45,922 bases of DNA from Fibrobacter sp. (GTDB taxonomy: Bacteria > Fibrobacterota > Fibrobacteria > Fibrobacterales > Fibrobacteraceae): positions 1 through 45,922 of the forward strand of contig NZ_JAFZKX010000095.1 of the NCBI RefSeq assembly GCF_017551775.1. Direction: 5' to 3'. The translations under genes and the position numbers were made by a program. Positions 31,945 to 39,833 of this stretch are shown here, piece after piece. Position 1 is the stretch's first letter. Every line of letters starts with the position of its first letter. The notes beneath the pieces are model-generated. The model did no database searches. It was not told the DNA's origin and worked only from the letters and a program-made list of their open reading frames with translations.

Positions 31945-32020
31945 GGGGTGGTAGCTCAATTTTGGTTAGAGCACCGGCCTGTCACGCCGGAGGTTGCGAG
32001 TTCAAGCCTCGTCTATCCCG
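31945..32020 (+). tRNA. tRNA-Asp (anticodon GTC)
   Basis: A full cloverleaf can be drawn: acceptor GGGGTGG with CTATCCC, D stem GCTC/GAGC, anticodon stem CCGGC/GCCGG around loop CTGTCAC (anticodon GTC), variable loop AGGTT, T stem GCGAG/CTCGT with loop TTCAAGC, and discriminator G. The CCA end is not encoded (CGA follows). The anticodon region ACCGGCCTGTCACGCCGG is typical of bacterial tRNA-Asp. Confidence 0.96.
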
Positions 32021-32023
32021 CGA

Positions 32024-32055
32024 AAAAGTCCTCTCGAAAGAGAGGACTTTTCGTT
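32024..32055 (+). terminator. Terminator after tRNA-Asp
   Basis: AAAAGTCCTCTC and GAGAGGACTTTT form a 12-bp stem with a GAAA tetraloop (32024-32051), followed by CGTTT. Confidence 0.85.
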
Positions 32056-32127
32056 TATTGAGCAAAGCGAAATAAACCAAATATCCACCTTCGAAAGAAG
32101 GTCTTTTTCGTTTATTGAGCGAAGCGA
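32048..32127 (+). repeat. Duplicated terminator-tail segment
   Basis: TTTTCGTTTATTGAGCAAAG and the bases up to 32070 recur at 32105-32127 with one difference in 23 bases. The second copy is also preceded by a hairpin with the same GAAA loop (ACCTTC-GAAA-GAAGGT, 32087-32102). This is probably the remnant of a tandem duplication of the tRNA 3' flank. Confidence 0.7.
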
Positions 32128-32147
32128 TACAAGCCTAAAAAGCTCTA

Positions 32148-32387
32148 TTACATACCAAGGCATATGCTCCGCTCATTTAGTATGTAAAGCGAATGGGCTC
32201 TCCAATAGGCTTACATACTAAACGCCTAAATACTTGCCGCTGGTATGTAAAAACACGACTCGACAACATAGAAACAGGCCCAAAAGCAGCATTGCGGCCC
32301 CGTCATCCCTTCTTTTATCTCAAAAAGCACCCTCCAGGCGCACAAAATTACATACCAAATGGGTATAAAACATCGATTAGTATGTAA
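32148..32387. repeat. Three 40-bp palindromic units, arms TTACATACYAA / TTRGTATGTAA
   Basis: Units lie at 32148-32187, 32211-32250 and 32348-32387. Each has an 11-base left arm (TTACATACCAA, TTACATACTAA, TTACATACCAA), exactly 18 unrelated bases, and an 11-base right arm (TTAGTATGTAA, CTGGTATGTAA, TTAGTATGTAA). The eight outer bases TTACATAC/GTATGTAA are invariant. The rest of the 32128-32435 stretch shows no gene. Function unknown; see findings. Confidence 0.8.
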
Positions 32388-32435: not shown

Positions 32436-32469
32436 AGAAAAACCCGCGCAGGTTCACTGCACGGGTTTT
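32436..32469 (-). terminator. Terminator after the giant repeat protein gene
   Basis: On the minus strand AAAACCCGTGCAG and CTGCGCGGGTTTTT form a stem with one mismatch, followed by TTTCTTT. Confidence 0.85.
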
Positions 32470-32492: not shown

Positions 32493-35400
32493 TTACCTTT
32501 TCTTCTTTTTCTTCTTGCCCTTTCTGTCGTCCTTAGCGGGCTTTTCTTCTTCCTTCGGTTCTTCAACCTTCGGAGCCGGCTTCGGAGCGTTGCCACGCAG
32601 GTCCTTCATCTTGAAGGTAACGTTGACTTCGGCGGTTTCGACCTTGGAGTAGACTCCACCCGGATCCTTCACCTTGAAGGTGAATTCATCGAGGCCGGAG
32701 AATCCGCGGTTCGGCGTGTAGGTGAAGCTACCGTCGCGCTCGTTCAGCTCAATCTTGCCGTTGCGCGGACGCTGCACCAGCTGAACGGCCACGGGCTTTT
32801 CGCCATCGGCATCGGAAACGCCATTCATCAGGCCTTCAGATGCGGTCACCTTGAGCATTTCGCCTTCCTGGGTCATGTAGGTCTGGGACTTTGCCACCGG
32901 CGGGTCATTCACAGGAATAACCGTGAAGGTAGCAGTCTTCTGGGCCTTAGCACCTTCCGGGTCGGTCACCGTGAACGTGATACGTTCCGGCTTGCCGTTC
33001 CAGTTTTCGTGCGGCTGGGACACAGTGAGGATCCTCTTGAACTTGTCGTACTTCACCTGCAGGAACTTGTTGCCAGTCCAGGTCCACTTGAGCTCTTCAG
33101 GCCTGTGGTCCTTGTCGCGGGCATACTGATCGGTCTTGATGGTAGCGATAACGCCTTCATTGTCATCTTCCCTGATGGTGAAGTCCTGGATATCGCGCAT
33201 CACCGGAGCGGAGTTCACGTGCTTCACGACGAACTTGACGACGGCCTTGTCCATTCCGCCTGCCGGGTCCTGAGCCATGAACACGAGGGTTTCTTCGCCG
33301 AACCAATCCTGCCTCTTGGGCTTCACGACGGCTTCACGACCGCCAGAAATCATCACGTCGAGATTCTTGGCGCCGGAGACCTTCCACTTGATTTCGTGCG
33401 GCTTGTGGTCGGGGTCAGTCACGTACTGGTCGAGCTTGATAGCCTTGAAGGACTTGCCTTCGAGGGTTTCCTGGCCCGGAATTTCCTGCACGACCGGCGG
33501 GTCGTTCACAGGACGCACGGTGAACTTCACCTTCACGGAGGCCTTTTCACCAGCCGGGTCGAACACGTTCACGGTCACGGTTTCGGTACCATACCAGAAC
33601 TTGTTCGGGGTCTCGGCGGTAAGCACGCCCTTGTCGCTGATTTCAAACTTCATTTCATGCTTGACCGGTCCATCTTCGGGGTCGACAGGCTTAGCCTTCT
33701 TGCCCTTCTTGGCAGGAGCGGCCTTGGCACCCGGGACGTCGTTATCGAGAGACCACTTGAGATCTTCAAGCTTGTTGTCCGGATCGCTCACGACCTTGCT
33801 GAAGTCGAACGGCTGGAACTGCTTCTTTTCGTCGATTACGAACGGCTGCACCGGCTTGAGTACCGGAGGATCGTTGACCGGAGTCACTTCGAAGGTTGCG
33901 CTCTTGGAAGCAGAAGCACCGGACGGATCCTTCACGGTGAACGTGAGGGTTTCCTTGCCGAACCAGTTCGGGTTCGGGGTCACCACCATGGCGCGGCTGC
34001 CCTTGATGTCAACCTTCAAGTCCTTGTTGCCGGCAACAGACCAGCGGAGTTCGGCAGGCTTGTTGTCCGGGTCTTCGGCGGCCTTCGAGAGGTCGACCGG
34101 AGCGAACTTTTCCCTTTCCTTGATCTTCTGGCCAGGAATGAACTTCACGACCGGCGGGTCGTTCACCGGAGTCACTTCGAAGGTGACCTGCACAGTGCCC
34201 TTAGCGCCTTCCGGGTCAATCACGTCGAGCTTGACCTTTTCAGTACCGCTCCAGAACTTGTCCGGAGTAGAGACAACCAGTTCCTTCTTCGCATTCACGG
34301 AAGCCTTCAGAGAGCGGGTAGAGCCCACTTCGAACTTGAGCGCGGCGAACGGATGATCCGGATCAGACACGAACTGAGAAAGATCGATCGGCTTGAAGTG
34401 TTCCTTCTCCTGGATGGACTGGGTCGGAATCGGCTTGATGACCGGAGCGTCGTTCACGGATTCCACGAGGAAGTTCACCGTCTTGGAGGCCTTAGCGCCT
34501 TCCGGGTCGGTGACCGTGAAGGTCACGTTGCGTTCGCCATGCCAGAACTTGTCGGAAATGTTGATGCGGGCGATGTTCCTGCTGTCGATTTCCACCTGGA
34601 ATTCGTCAACCGGAACCGGTGCCGGAGCGGCCTCTTCGACCTTCTCTTCCTTGGCGCCCTTCTTGCCCTTCTTCGCGGGCTTCTTGGGCTTGACTTCCTT
34701 CTTCGGAGCGGCGACAGGGCCGACCTTCGCGACAGTAGCCGTCCACGTGAGCTGTTCGTTCTTGTGGTCGGGGTCACGCACAAACTTGTTCAGGTCGATT
34801 TCCTTGAACTGGCCCTTTTCCTTGATCCTCTGGCCAGGAATGTCCTTCATCTCAGGAACGTCGTTCACCGAGGTAATTTCGAAGGTCACCGTCTGCGAGG
34901 TAGCGGCACCATCCGGGTCCTTGACTTCCAAGACCATCGTCTCGGGTGCGCACCAGAAGTACTTGTCCGGAGCGGAGACGGTAAGGATGCGGCTCGGAGA
35001 AATTTCAGCCTTGAGCTTCTTGTTGCCAGTGACAGTCCAAACGAGTTCGTTCGGCTTGTTGTCCGGGTCCTTCACGAATTCGTCGAGCTTGATCTGCTTG
35101 AAGTTTTCCTTTTCCTTGATCTTCTGGTCAGGAATCTTCTTCGCAAGCGTCGGCGGGTCGTTCACGCGGGTCACTTCGAAGGTCATCCTGTGGTTAGCAG
35201 AAGCGCCTTCCGGGTCGGTGACGGTGAACGTGAGCATTTCGCGGCCAGACCACTGCGGATCAGGCACAGAAACGATGACGGTGTTGTCCTTGCGGATATC
35301 AACCTTCAGCTGCTTGTTGCCCGAGACACTCCACTTGAGGCTGGTGGCCGGATGGTCCGGATCAATAGCGAGGTTAGCAAGGTCGATCGTCTTGAAGCGG

Positions 35401-38400
35401 CCGCCTTCGCGGATGGTCTCGCCCTGCGGAGCCTTCTCGGCAATCTTCGGCGGGTCGTTGATAGAACGCACTTCGAAGCGTGCGGTCTTCGAGGTCTTGG
35501 CGCCTTCCGGGTCGGTCGCGGTGAACGTGATGTTCGCGGCACCGTTCCAGAACTTGTTCGGGATTTCGATGGTCGCCACCTGGTTCGCATCCACGCTGAC
35601 CTTGAGAGTTTCAACAGCCGGAGCCTTCACTTCGGGTTCGGCCTTGGCCTTCTTGCCCTTCTTCGGGGCCGGTTCGGCGGAAGCGAGCTTGGCGGGCTTC
35701 ACTTCGAAGCTCCACTTGATATCAGAAGCCTTGTGGTCCGGGTCCTTCACGAGGTCGCCGAGCCTAATGGTCTGGAACTGCTTCTTCTCGTCGATGGACT
35801 GATCCTTGAGTTCGCGCACGAATTCAGGAGCGTCGTTCACGGATTCCACAGTGAAGGTGACCTTGCGAGAATCGGAAGCGCCTTCCGGGTCGGTGACGGT
35901 GAACGTAATCGTCTCGGAACCGTTCCACTGCGGGTTCGGCTGAGAAACGGTGACCTTGTGGCTGCCGTCCATCTGCACCTTGAGTTCCTTGGCGCCTTCA
36001 ATCTTCCACTTGAGCTTGTTCTTGGCGTGGTCGAGGTCATCGACGAAGTTATCAAGTTCGATAGGCTTGAACTGGCCCTTTTCCTTGATAGTCTGGTTCG
36101 CGATATCCTTCATAATCGGCGGGTCGTTGATGGACTTCACCGTGAAGGTGACCATGGCCTTGGCAGCGGCACCTTCCGGGTCGGTCACGACGAACGTGAT
36201 CTTCTCGGTACCGTTCCACATCTTGCTCGGGGCCTTGACCGTAGCCTTGCCGTCCTTGCTGATGTCGACCTTCAGGTCCTTGTTGCCAGTAACTTCAATA
36301 TTGAGCTTTTCGTACGGATGATCCGGGTCCTTGATGATGGCCGCGAGATCAATCGGAGTGAATTCCTGCTTTTCTTCGACAATCTGGTCTTCAATCTTGC
36401 CGATGGTCGGAGCGTCGTTAACGGAGGTCACGGTGAAGAGCGCCGTGCAGCTGGCCTTGCCGCCTTCCGGATCTTCCACCTTGAACGTGATTTCTTCGGC
36501 ACCGTTCCAGTTCTTGTCCGGAATGATGATGCGGGCCATGCGGTTTTCCACCTTCACGGACAGCTTCGGAATATAGGTCTTCGGAGCACCCTTCGCCGGC
36601 TTCACGTCGAAGCTCCAGGTGAGCTGTTCGGGCTTGTGGTCCGGATCAGCCACGATGTCAGCGAGGTTGATAATCGCGAACTCGCGCTTTTCAGGAATGG
36701 TCTGATCCTTGATGGGCTTGGTGAACACCGGCAGGTCGTTCACGGATTCAACGGTGAACTTGACCTTGCGGGAATCAGCAGCGCCTTCCGGGTCGGTAAC
36801 GGTGAACGTGATAACTTCTTCGCCGTGCCAGAACTTGTTCGGGGCGGTAACGGTCACCACATGCTTGGCATCCATCTGGACCTTCAGGTCCTTGTTGCCG
36901 GAGAACGTCCACTTGAGCTTGGAGTTGTCGTGGTCCTCGTCCTTCGCGAAGTCATCCAGCGCGATGGGCTTAAACTGTTCCTTCTCCTTGATCTTCTGGC
37001 TTGCGATATCCTTCATGACCGGCGGGTCGTTGATGGACTTCACCGTGAACACGGCGTCGCTCTTGGCAGCAGCGCCTTCCGGGTCGGCAACCGTGAAGGT
37101 CACCTTTTCGGAACCGTTCCACTTCGGGTTCGGAGTCTTGATGGTGGCAACACCGTTCTTGTCGATATCGACCTTCAGTTCCTTGTTGCCAGTGACAGTC
37201 CACTTGAGCTTTGCAAATTCATGGTCAGCGTCGTTCACGAGTTCGGCGAGGTTCACCGGGTTGAACTGCTGCTTTTCTTCAATCATCTGGTCCGGGACCT
37301 TCTTGAGTTCGGGCACGTCGTTCACGGACTGCACCGTGAAGAGGGCCTTAGAAGAAGCCTTTGCACCTTCGGGGTCGGTAACCGTGAAGGTAATTTCGGC
37401 GGCACCGTTCCAGAACTTGTTCGGGATATTTACCTTGGCGACGTGCTGGGCGTCGATTTCAACAGAAAGATCGCCGTCCTTGCCCTTCACCGTCGGCTTC
37501 ACGTCGACAGAGAACGTGAGATCAGAAAGCTTGTTGTCGAGGTCGCGGACCATTTCGGCAAGCTTGATGGGCTGGAATTGACCCTTTTCCTTGATAGTCT
37601 GCGGCTGGATCTGCTTCACGAATTCGGGCAGGTCGTTCACGGATTCCACCGTGTAAGCGATGGAGCGTTCGTCAGAAGCGCCTTCCGGGTCGGAAACCTT
37701 GATGGTAAGCGTCTCGGAGCCGTTCCACTGCGGGCTCGGCGGAGTCACCTTCATCACGCGGTTCGCGTCGACGACAACCTTGAGTTCGCGGTTGCCGGTA
37801 ATCGTCCACTTGAGCTTGTCCTTGCCGTGGTCGAGGTCATCGACATACTTGTCGAGTTCAACATCCTTGAACTGGCCCTTTTCCTTGATGGTCTGTTCCG
37901 GAATGTCCTTCATGACCGGCGGGTCGTTGATGGACTTCACCGAGAGCTTCATCGTGGTCTTAGCCACACCGCCTTCCGGGTCGGTAGCAGTGAACGTGAC
38001 AGTCTCGGAACCGTTCCAGAGTTCGTTCGGAGTCTTGAACGTGACTTCGCGAGTCTTCTGGTTGATGTTGACCTTGATGTCCTTGTTGCCGGCGACTTCG
38101 ACCTTCAGCTTCGAGATGTCGTGGTCCGGGTCAGAAAGGTATTCGTCGAGAACGATGGAAGAAAGTTCGGTCTTCTCTTCGACTTCCTGGTCAGGAATCT
38201 TCTTGAACACCGGCTTGTCGTTGATGGAGCTTACCGTAAGGGTAACGGCCTGCTTGATGGAAGCACCTTCCGGGTCGGAGCAGGTGAACGTCGCCACAGC
38301 GGCGCCGTTCCAGTAGGTGTCGGGGATTTCGATAGAAGCGATGCGGTTCTCGTCGATGTTGACGACGAGCGTTCCGGATTCGGGCTCCTTGCCCTGGTGC

Positions 38401-39833
38401 TTCACGTCGACATCCCAAGAGAGTTCAGAATTCTTGTGGTCAGCATCCTTGACGAATTCGTCAAGCTTGATCTTGGCAAACTGCTTCTTTTCTTCGATGG
38501 TCTGGTTCGGGATAGTCTTCGTGAATTCGGGCTTATCGTTCACAGAGTTGACGGTGAACGTAGCCTCAGAAGTGGCGCAAGCGTTAGCCGGGTCGCACAC
38601 CTTGAACTTGAGCGTTTCGGAACCATTCCAGAACTTACTCGGGATGGCGATTGTGGCAGTACCGCCGGCAATCTTGACCTTCAGGTCCTTGTTGCCAGAA
38701 ACTTCCCACTTGAGCTGTTCCATCTTGTGGTCCGGATCCTTCACGAGCTGCGAGAGCTCGATCGGCTTGAATTCCTGTTTTTCTTCGATGGTCTGTTCAG
38801 GCACGTCCTTCGTGAACTCCGGCGGGTCGTTGATGGACTTCACCGTGAAGGTGGCCTTCGTGCTCACCGCCGCACCAGCGGGGTCGGTCGCAGTAAAGGT
38901 AACGGTTTCAGTTCCGTTCCAGAATTCGTTCGGGATCTTGATGTTCGCGGTACCGTACTTGTCGAGGTCGAACTTCAGGTCCTTGTTGCCCGTAATGGCC
39001 CACTTGATTTTCGAGACGTCATCATCGACATCGCTCACGAAGTCCGTAAGGGAGATAGATTCGAACTCGTTCTTTTCTTCGATGGTTTGGTCAGGAATCT
39101 TCTGCAGCACGGGAGCATCGTTAATCGGCTTCACCGTGAAGAGAGCCGTCTTCTTGTCGGACGCGTACTCGCCGTCGGTCGCAGTGAATGTAATCTTTGC
39201 AGAACCGTACCAGTTGGTATCGGGGATGATAATGGTAGCGACGCGCTTCGGGTCGATTTCAACGTTGAGGTCGCCTTCAGCTTGATCCTTGCCCACCGGT
39301 TGGATGTCGAATTCCCACAAGATCTGGTCCTTCGGGTGGTCCGGGTCAGTCACGAATTCATCGAGTTTAATCTTGGTAAACTGCTTGCCTTCGTCGATGT
39401 TCTGTTCGGGAATGGCCTTCATGACAGGCGGGTTGTTCACGGATTCAACAGAGAAGTTGACCGTCTCGGAACCAACAGCACCCTTGGAGTCGGTAGCCGC
39501 AAACGTAATGTCTTCGGAACCGTTCCAGTACTGGTCGGGGACCTGCAGGGTGGCCACATGGTCGTTCGAGATGGACACCTTGATGCTCTTGTTGCCCGAT
39601 ACAGACCACTTGAGCTGCGCGGGCTTGTCCATGTCGTCCGAGACATAACTATCAAGCTTGATCGGAGCGAACTTGCCGCCTTCGTTGATAGATTCCCCTG
39701 GAATCCCGTTCACTGACGGCGCGTTGTTTTCGACCGCCGGGGACTTGCCAGAATTTTCCTGCGCAATTACGACAGAGGCTAGAACTCCAGCCGATGCCAA
39801 AAGCGCTGTAACAGGCCATTTCATTTTATTCAT
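32493..39833 (-). CDS. Giant secreted protein with 22 Ig/cadherin-like tandem repeats
   Basis: The 2446-residue protein has a signal peptide (about 1-24, ending SVVIA). Residues 36-2308 comprise 22 tandem repeats of 96-137 residues, each opening near NDPPV and containing DPDH, GNKDLKV, a WNGSE motif and TDPEGA. A different domain (2309 to about 2410, TYMTQEG...FTYTPNRGFSG) and a Lys-rich tail ending KGKKKKKKR follow. Every third repeat (2, 5, 8, 11, 14, 17, 20) carries an insert between strands; in repeats 14, 17 and 20 it is Lys/Ala/Pro-rich (KKGKKAK). The repeats resemble bacterial cadherin-like/tandem-95 modules; DPDH positions may bind calcium. A role in adhesion to cells or plant fibre is inference. 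GGGAG precedes the ATG. Confidence 0.88.
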   Translation of the reverse strand: MNKMKWPVTALLASAGVLASVVIAQENSGKSPAVENNAPSVNGIPGESINEGGKFAPIKLDSYVSDDMDKPAQLKWSVSGNKSIKVSISNDHVATLQVPDQYWNGSEDITFAATDSKGAVGSETVNFSVESVNNPPVMKAIPEQNIDEGKQFTKIKLDEFVTDPDHPKDQILWEFDIQPVGKDQAEGDLNVEIDPKRVATIIIPDTNWYGSAKITFTATDGEYASDKKTALFTVKPINDAPVLQKIPDQTIEEKNEFESISLTDFVSDVDDDVSKIKWAITGNKDLKFDLDKYGTANIKIPNEFWNGTETVTFTATDPAGAAVSTKATFTVKSINDPPEFTKDVPEQTIEEKQEFKPIELSQLVKDPDHKMEQLKWEVSGNKDLKVKIAGGTATIAIPSKFWNGSETLKFKVCDPANACATSEATFTVNSVNDKPEFTKTIPNQTIEEKKQFAKIKLDEFVKDADHKNSELSWDVDVKHQGKEPESGTLVVNIDENRIASIEIPDTYWNGAAVATFTCSDPEGASIKQAVTLTVSSINDKPVFKKIPDQEVEEKTELSSIVLDEYLSDPDHDISKLKVEVAGNKDIKVNINQKTREVTFKTPNELWNGSETVTFTATDPEGGVAKTTMKLSVKSINDPPVMKDIPEQTIKEKGQFKDVELDKYVDDLDHGKDKLKWTITGNRELKVVVDANRVMKVTPPSPQWNGSETLTIKVSDPEGASDERSIAYTVESVNDLPEFVKQIQPQTIKEKGQFQPIKLAEMVRDLDNKLSDLTFSVDVKPTVKGKDGDLSVEIDAQHVAKVNIPNKFWNGAAEITFTVTDPEGAKASSKALFTVQSVNDVPELKKVPDQMIEEKQQFNPVNLAELVNDADHEFAKLKWTVTGNKELKVDIDKNGVATIKTPNPKWNGSEKVTFTVADPEGAAAKSDAVFTVKSINDPPVMKDIASQKIKEKEQFKPIALDDFAKDEDHDNSKLKWTFSGNKDLKVQMDAKHVVTVTAPNKFWHGEEVITFTVTDPEGAADSRKVKFTVESVNDLPVFTKPIKDQTIPEKREFAIINLADIVADPDHKPEQLTWSFDVKPAKGAPKTYIPKLSVKVENRMARIIIPDKNWNGAEEITFKVEDPEGGKASCTALFTVTSVNDAPTIGKIEDQIVEEKQEFTPIDLAAIIKDPDHPYEKLNIEVTGNKDLKVDISKDGKATVKAPSKMWNGTEKITFVVTDPEGAAAKAMVTFTVKSINDPPIMKDIANQTIKEKGQFKPIELDNFVDDLDHAKNKLKWKIEGAKELKVQMDGSHKVTVSQPNPQWNGSETITFTVTDPEGASDSRKVTFTVESVNDAPEFVRELKDQSIDEKKQFQTIRLGDLVKDPDHKASDIKWSFEVKPAKLASAEPAPKKGKKAKAEPEVKAPAVETLKVSVDANQVATIEIPNKFWNGAANITFTATDPEGAKTSKTARFEVRSINDPPKIAEKAPQGETIREGGRFKTIDLANLAIDPDHPATSLKWSVSGNKQLKVDIRKDNTVIVSVPDPQWSGREMLTFTVTDPEGASANHRMTFEVTRVNDPPTLAKKIPDQKIKEKENFKQIKLDEFVKDPDNKPNELVWTVTGNKKLKAEISPSRILTVSAPDKYFWCAPETMVLEVKDPDGAATSQTVTFEITSVNDVPEMKDIPGQRIKEKGQFKEIDLNKFVRDPDHKNEQLTWTATVAKVGPVAAPKKEVKPKKPAKKGKKGAKEEKVEEAAPAPVPVDEFQVEIDSRNIARINISDKFWHGERNVTFTVTDPEGAKASKTVNFLVESVNDAPVIKPIPTQSIQEKEHFKPIDLSQFVSDPDHPFAALKFEVGSTRSLKASVNAKKELVVSTPDKFWSGTEKVKLDVIDPEGAKGTVQVTFEVTPVNDPPVVKFIPGQKIKEREKFAPVDLSKAAEDPDNKPAELRWSVAGNKDLKVDIKGSRAMVVTPNPNWFGKETLTFTVKDPSGASASKSATFEVTPVNDPPVLKPVQPFVIDEKKQFQPFDFSKVVSDPDNKLEDLKWSLDNDVPGAKAAPAKKGKKAKPVDPEDGPVKHEMKFEISDKGVLTAETPNKFWYGTETVTVNVFDPAGEKASVKVKFTVRPVNDPPVVQEIPGQETLEGKSFKAIKLDQYVTDPDHKPHEIKWKVSGAKNLDVMISGGREAVVKPKRQDWFGEETLVFMAQDPAGGMDKAVVKFVVKHVNSAPVMRDIQDFTIREDDNEGVIATIKTDQYARDKDHRPEELKWTWTGNKFLQVKYDKFKRILTVSQPHENWNGKPERITFTVTDPEGAKAQKTATFTVIPVNDPPVAKSQTYMTQEGEMLKVTASEGLMNGVSDADGEKPVAVQLVQRPRNGKIELNERDGSFTYTPNRGFSGLDEFTFKVKDPGGVYSKVETAEVNVTFKMKDLRGNAPKPAPKVEEPKEEEKPAKDDRKGKKKKKKR

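Follow-up and report, generated by a model that had tools for sequence, protein, structure and literature searches.

The homing endonuclease I-Bth0305I, of the EDxHD or Vsr-like type, is a dimer that recognizes a very long target of nearly 60 bp by separate DNA-binding regions (PMC3943268). The protein-array system described here resembles such Vsr-like enzymes in that I-Bth0305I provides the best structural match for its nuclease domain, and a long target and a dimer are proposed here as well. It deviates from them in its location outside of introns and phages, in a presumed target of three to four phased palindromes, in gene-less arrays present in trans, in a specificity exchanged together with the array and in a cleavage reaction that is putative. 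MITEs and other solo transposon remnants are likewise short, intergenic, gene-less copies whose recognition sequences are common with a gene-bearing copy, and the direct-repeat flanks found here would also permit solo copies; in the arrays, however, arms and spacing are conserved and linkers and centres hardly, the terminal repeats are direct instead of inverted, and the protein carries no known transposase domain. The REP/BIME elements with their RAYT proteins also consist of small groups of intergenic palindromic units plus a dedicated gene, whereas the array units lie on one helix face, their arms vary by gene lineage and the linked protein is PD-(D/E)XK-like rather than a Y1 (HUH) transposase. 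In type I restriction systems the specificity domain of HsdS can be exchanged with no change to the remaining protein. In the array system, too, it is the specificity domain that is exchanged, but here the target DNA adjoins the gene and takes part in the swap, and no methyltransferase partner was seen. At the sequence level, the nuclease domain is related to the PADLOC candidate PDC-S68, which differs in its size of ~1200 residues and for which no arrays are known. A CRISPR array does not describe the locus, as its repeat consists of an inverted pair and the linkers range from 23 to >100 bp.

The window, i.e. the whole analysed stretch of 45,922 nucleotides of Fibrobacter DNA, contains three exact matches to TTACATAC-N24-GTATGTAA at 32148-32187, 32211-32250 and 32348-32387. 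Dinucleotide shuffles gave a mean of 0.03 units and never reached three, and the three 40-bp units reported in an earlier note on this DNA are therefore real. The window contains six TTACATAC/GTATGTAA octamers, and each of them is part of one of these units. The 11-bp arms (32148-32158 and 32177-32187 in unit 1, 32211-32221 and 32240-32250 in unit 2, 32348-32358 and 32377-32387 in unit 3) differ little: in units 1, 2 and 3, TTACATAC is followed by CAA, TAA and CAA, and GTATGTAA is preceded by TTA, CTG and TTA, respectively, the right arm of unit 2 being CTGGTATGTAA. Linkers of 23 bp (32188-32210) and 97 bp (32251-32347) set the units 63 bp (6 helical turns) and 137 bp (13 turns) apart from centre to centre. 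The array (32148-32387) is flanked by two terminator-like hairpins, one (32024-32051, + strand) belonging to the tRNA-Asp (GTC) gene on its left (31945-32021, + strand; outside the element) and the other (32439-32469, - strand) to a convergent gene on its right (32493-39833, - strand). The latter encodes a 2446-aa protein with many similar tandem repeats and a secretion signal-like start. The tRNA-Asp terminator and a CGTTTATTGAGC...AAAGCG tail form two tandem copies in 32024-32135, with more copies in G055 (L033). The cognate gene of this solo array of the TTACATAC type is indeed absent from the window, in line with the earlier note, and is found at another place of this genome (G000:C47:1364-2179).

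The strongest regularity of the array is the unit spacing, on which the earlier note did not remark. The distances of 63 and 137 bp recur in another group of the same genome (G000, C47:947/1010/1147), with unrelated linkers. Among 60 distinct groups, mostly of three to four units each, the centre distances correspond to whole helical turns (62-64, 73-74, 83-85, 95-96, 106, 134-138, 146-148 and 158 bp); for 119 spacings R was 0.93 (near 10.4-10.5 bp), and it was 0.95 for 51 spacings from other arm types. A p-value is omitted because many groups are related, and the stronger argument is that the regularity returns in arm types unrelated to each other. Spacings in multiples of 10.5 bp imply DNA sites on one face of the helix. 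Within a unit the half-sites are about three helical turns apart, and in a set of 121 distinct units A/T makes up 79-96% at the dead centre, with positions 14-17 being G+C-richer. Phased units with an A/T middle show the layout as expected for protein dimers on one face of a bent DNA. The former description of near-identical arms around unrelated centres thus holds for the sequences of the centres, but not for their supposed freedom of composition. A motif TTACTTT(A/G)T or TTAGTTT occurs in the linkers at fixed offsets from the units in more than one third of the arrays (L119, L029, L102, L037) and spans three arm types.

The orthologous array of G055 differs from that of the window at 0/48 positions in the outer arms (those of unit 1 included), 2/24 in the inner arm, 7/48 in the centre, 16/120 in the linkers and 11/117 in the flanks; ascertainment by arm sequence biases such counts, but this array was reached also by position via the neighbouring gene. 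Other close ortholog pairs show a similar pattern. The three units are thus conserved, contrary to what would have spoken against the original proposal, and its claim that arms but not centres are constrained is borne out for the outer arms and fails for the middle of the centre, where A/T is needed.

The genome of the window (G000; 3.2 Mb, 114 contigs) contains 13 exact TTACATAC units in five groups, and the search for further copies suggested in the earlier note found exact units in 15 of the 61 genomes of the genus, whereas 40 relatives from outside the genus had none. A single unit in G028 was discounted, as this genome is 8% contaminated and the contig measures 3.8 kb. The full 40-bp pattern occurs in 40 stretches among 84,980 species genomes, all of them Fibrobacter or Fibrobacterales records. 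A phage or plasmid origin of the window array was considered and rejected, as blastn gave no match among plasmids or phages; IMG/VR contained no exact units and no relatives of the array-linked protein. Other arms occur in the same arrangement. At the same tRNA-Asp locus, G033 has a group with TGGGTACCAAA arms upstream of the tRNA, and G045 has about eight groups with TATGCTACTAAA arms and spacings of 84/85 and 95 bp. More than 25 arm types were found beside homologs of the linked gene; the outer arm varies and the architecture is constant. The array family is limited to Fibrobacteraceae.

Nine of the TTACATAC groups adjoin a gene for a protein of ~275 residues without family match in Pfam and NCBIfam, transposase, integrase and resolvase domains included. 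This gene is present in 41 of the 61 genus genomes, among them all those with TTACATAC units except the discounted G028. In a search of 168 genomes of the phylum, members of its family occurred in two genera only. An array with the same exact arms was found within 700 bp upstream of 37 of 48 homologs and in none of 592 control windows. When one mismatch was allowed, a same-arm array adjoined 71 of 74 homologs (54 upstream, 8 downstream, 9 on both sides); in two of the three without array, decayed arms can be recognised by eye. Loci collected once the rule had been fixed carried an array in 25 of 26 cases (6/6, including two from a sister genus, and 19/20) compared to 2 of 250 control windows, one of which contained an array whose arm is that of a homolog encoded on the same contig. 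On the basis of these comparisons the array-protein system is well supported, and no earlier description of it was found in the open-licence literature. A terminator-like hairpin followed by a T-run shortly 5' of the start codon was found in 21 of 48 genes (e.g. in L152 upstream of 1364), which makes attenuation possible. A full-length relative with 31% identity on a human-gut contig (MT839528.1; L202 3054-3830) has no such array upstream; GTTGC-rich inverted repeats lie downstream of this gene.

Division of the protein at residue 69 into an N-part and a C-part revealed which portion is associated with the arm. Among pairs whose C-parts are at least 80% identical, those with the same arms have mean N-part identities of 76 and 90% (two identity bins), and those with different arms of about 30-37%. 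Thus, the C-parts of the proteins G006:C83 (TTACATAC) and G044:C3 (GTACCTATA) are 97% identical and their N-parts only 30%, and G055:C3 and G034:C8 have an identical N-part and array and a C-part identity of 91%. The agreement of N-part and arm despite a nearly identical C-part indicates that array and N-domain are swapped as one module. At the purA site of relatives the gene is present with several arm types, and where it is absent no array was found. The N-domain is predicted as helix/beta-hairpin/helix, and the hairpin residues follow the arm type (LR(V/I)(I/V)(T/R)NH in TTACATAC proteins, LRVGMNH in the TTACGGAC protein). This pairing, read from sequence comparison, suggests that the N-domain probably reads the arm. 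When the whole model or the domain by itself served as query, structure searches returned coiled-coil/prefoldin-like and similar helical matches only (Z ≤8.5), and Foldseek gave nothing under 1e-3; no DNA-binding family is therefore named. The earlier suggestion of sites for a dimeric DNA-binding protein appears broadly right.

The C-terminal domain is predicted to be Vsr/EDxHD/PD-(D/E)XK-like, i.e. homing-endonuclease-like. The model of the protein (pLDDT 88.9) is best matched, although modestly, by the I-Bth0305I catalytic domain (Z 8.8, 93 residues, rmsd 2.8); further matches are TnsA (Z 8.6), Vsr (Z 7.1) and Bax1 (overall Z 7-9, modest). No sequence relative was found in the PDB. The catalytic-type residues E161, E207 and H208 are present in 54 of 54 proteins and D192 in 53 of 54, and this invariance argues for catalysis being kept. 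The WEHFG motif is without the lysine usual in PD-(D/E)XK enzymes. Nuclease fold and retained active-site-type residues, both predicted, are features of a homing endonuclease gene. As the linked protein is a predicted nuclease and not an integrase, the tyrosine or serine recombinase sites once considered for the window are disfavoured.

Gene-less arrays in trans were found with at least four arm types (TTACATAC, TATGCTAC, GGGGCGTATA and TGGGTACC), and G033 has five TGGGTACC arrays, yet its two homologs bear other arms. Several arrays in G048 have common linkers and different flanks, and those in G045 are distantly similar to one another, which implies that arrays are copied. In three cases (G140:C2, G004:C1, G029:C3) the gene lies between direct array copies that are 91-92% identical, the repeat in G140:C2 stopping at the outer arms; in an older case (G001/G051) the copies are ~80% identical over 108 bp. 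To judge from these sequences, such a structure is expected after recombination at arrays. Gene loci as occupied orphan arrays were also considered and rejected, as no allelic gene/no-gene pair around one array was found in the relatives. The idea of a mobile repeat raised in the earlier note appears broadly right.

Taken together, we consider it somewhat probable (roughly 55%) that the window harbours a solo array of a modular protein-array system of Fibrobacteraceae, which would be a homing-endonuclease-like selfish element. The array family, its phasing, the gene linkage, the co-inheritance of array and N-domain and the copies in trans are supported by sequence comparison. We infer dimer binding, cleavage and homing-like copying in the following scenario: A homodimer would bind to each unit with one N-domain per arm across the A/T-rich, bendable middle, and three to four dimers on one helix face would assemble into one complex. 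The protein might then, less certainly, act as an endonuclease inside the array, and array recombination might, also less certainly, copy the element in the style of a homing endonuclease gene. Finally, a gene trapped between two direct array copies might be lost again, leaving behind a solo array as found in the window. The intact gene-less arrays, which coexist with the cognate gene in the same genomes, count against an active nuclease, as it should cut them unless controlled. More tentatively, the data may reflect a categorically new class of genetic element, namely a single-gene, specificity-swapping nuclease for which cognate multi-palindrome arrays are maintained by selection throughout the chromosome, protein and targets turn over together and array-to-array recombination constitutes the life cycle, with a turnover logic comparable to that of PRDM9 hotspots; we regard this extended reading as possible rather than probable.

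The main rival is a lineage-specific DNA-binding regulator or chromosome organiser with a nuclease-like domain of structural function, for which the arrays would be operators or tethering sites, with autoregulation through the gene-linked array and organisation or insulation of the chromosome through the orphan arrays. Strict helical phasing, A/T-rich middles and the scattering of arrays through the genome agree with this proposal. It would also account for the preserved arms of the orphan arrays: that these are kept while centres and linkers drift suggests a cellular function rather than dead remnants, although the array search favours arrays with good arms. Moreover, the upstream array in 54 of 74 and the leader hairpin in 21 of 48 cases fit a plain autoregulated DNA-binding protein as well. 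However, the intergenic orphan arrays (17 convergent, 17 tandem and 10 divergent versus a baseline of 20/33/21) show no promoter preference and have differing neighbours, unlike the sites of a transcription-factor regulon, and a regulon of neighbouring genes was rejected on this basis. Furthermore, the array is solely downstream of 8 homologs and on both sides of 9, the catalytic-type residues are invariant, and specificity swaps faster than it would in a global regulator. We judge this role to be doubtful. TIGR02147/DUF4423 regulators, found near 10 arrays, were rejected as trans-acting factors; genes of this family are very numerous in the genus, and those next to the arrays represent different paralogs, so that chance explains the adjacency.

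A transposon family, consisting of the gene with its arrays as autonomous element and of MITE-like solo arrays that the protein itself would move as a TnsA-like transposase, appears unlikely. It would account for the array-exact boundaries, the direct repeats around the gene, the paralogous arrays with unrelated flanks and the presence of TnsA among the best fold matches, but the orientation of the terminal repeats is at variance with it, neither a second (DDE) subunit nor a target duplication was seen, arrays that look recently copied are rare within one genome, and old copies have conserved arms. Still less probable is a defence or addiction function, in which chromosomal arrays would restrain a nuclease that is freed on invaders or upon array loss. 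The match of the C-terminal domain to the C-terminus of PDC-S68 (E 2e-25), leader hairpins suggestive of expression control, the patchy presence and the switches of specificity are in line with it; PDC-S68 is, however, itself a candidate, its large N-terminal part is missing here, no partner gene was found and no defence-island context established. Transcribed RNA hairpins, proposed in the earlier note and conceivable insofar as a unit can fold into an 11-bp stem with an 18-nt loop, are very improbable, as the spacing obeys the DNA helix, in 26 of 157 units the half-sites pair imperfectly owing to C/T differences, with no strand preference, the Rfam match is the tRNA only and the array of the window sits between two terminator-like hairpins.

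The three palindromes thus belong, as an orphan piece, to a family that appears to be undescribed, with more than 70 protein-array pairs and more than 25 recognition sequences, which accounts for recurrent intergenic palindromes in rumen Fibrobacter, an important genus. The comparisons point to a selfish or self-targeting genetic element of an undescribed kind, whose reading domain and array would be swapped together. Because a protein domain and its DNA can be matched by comparison alone, the family provides a data set for a recognition code of the helix/beta-hairpin/helix domain, represents a case of a selfish or regulatory element changing its genome-wide targets via one module swap and is a possible source of natural long-site nucleases. 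Several arrays deserve mention in their own right. A gene-less array with the arm TGGCGGTGAAA is located at L265 1595-1795 (G033:C8), and homologs with this arm are present in G055:C70 (L282) and G006:C161 (L290). The linked genes in the genome of the window are of the TTACATAC and TGGGTACC types; relic units of the GGGGCGTATA type are present there at C6:31706 and C70:44885 (L276, L277). Finally, a TAGGACTAAA array is amplified upstream of its gene in tandem copies of ~201 bp (L183 5070-5586; L283).
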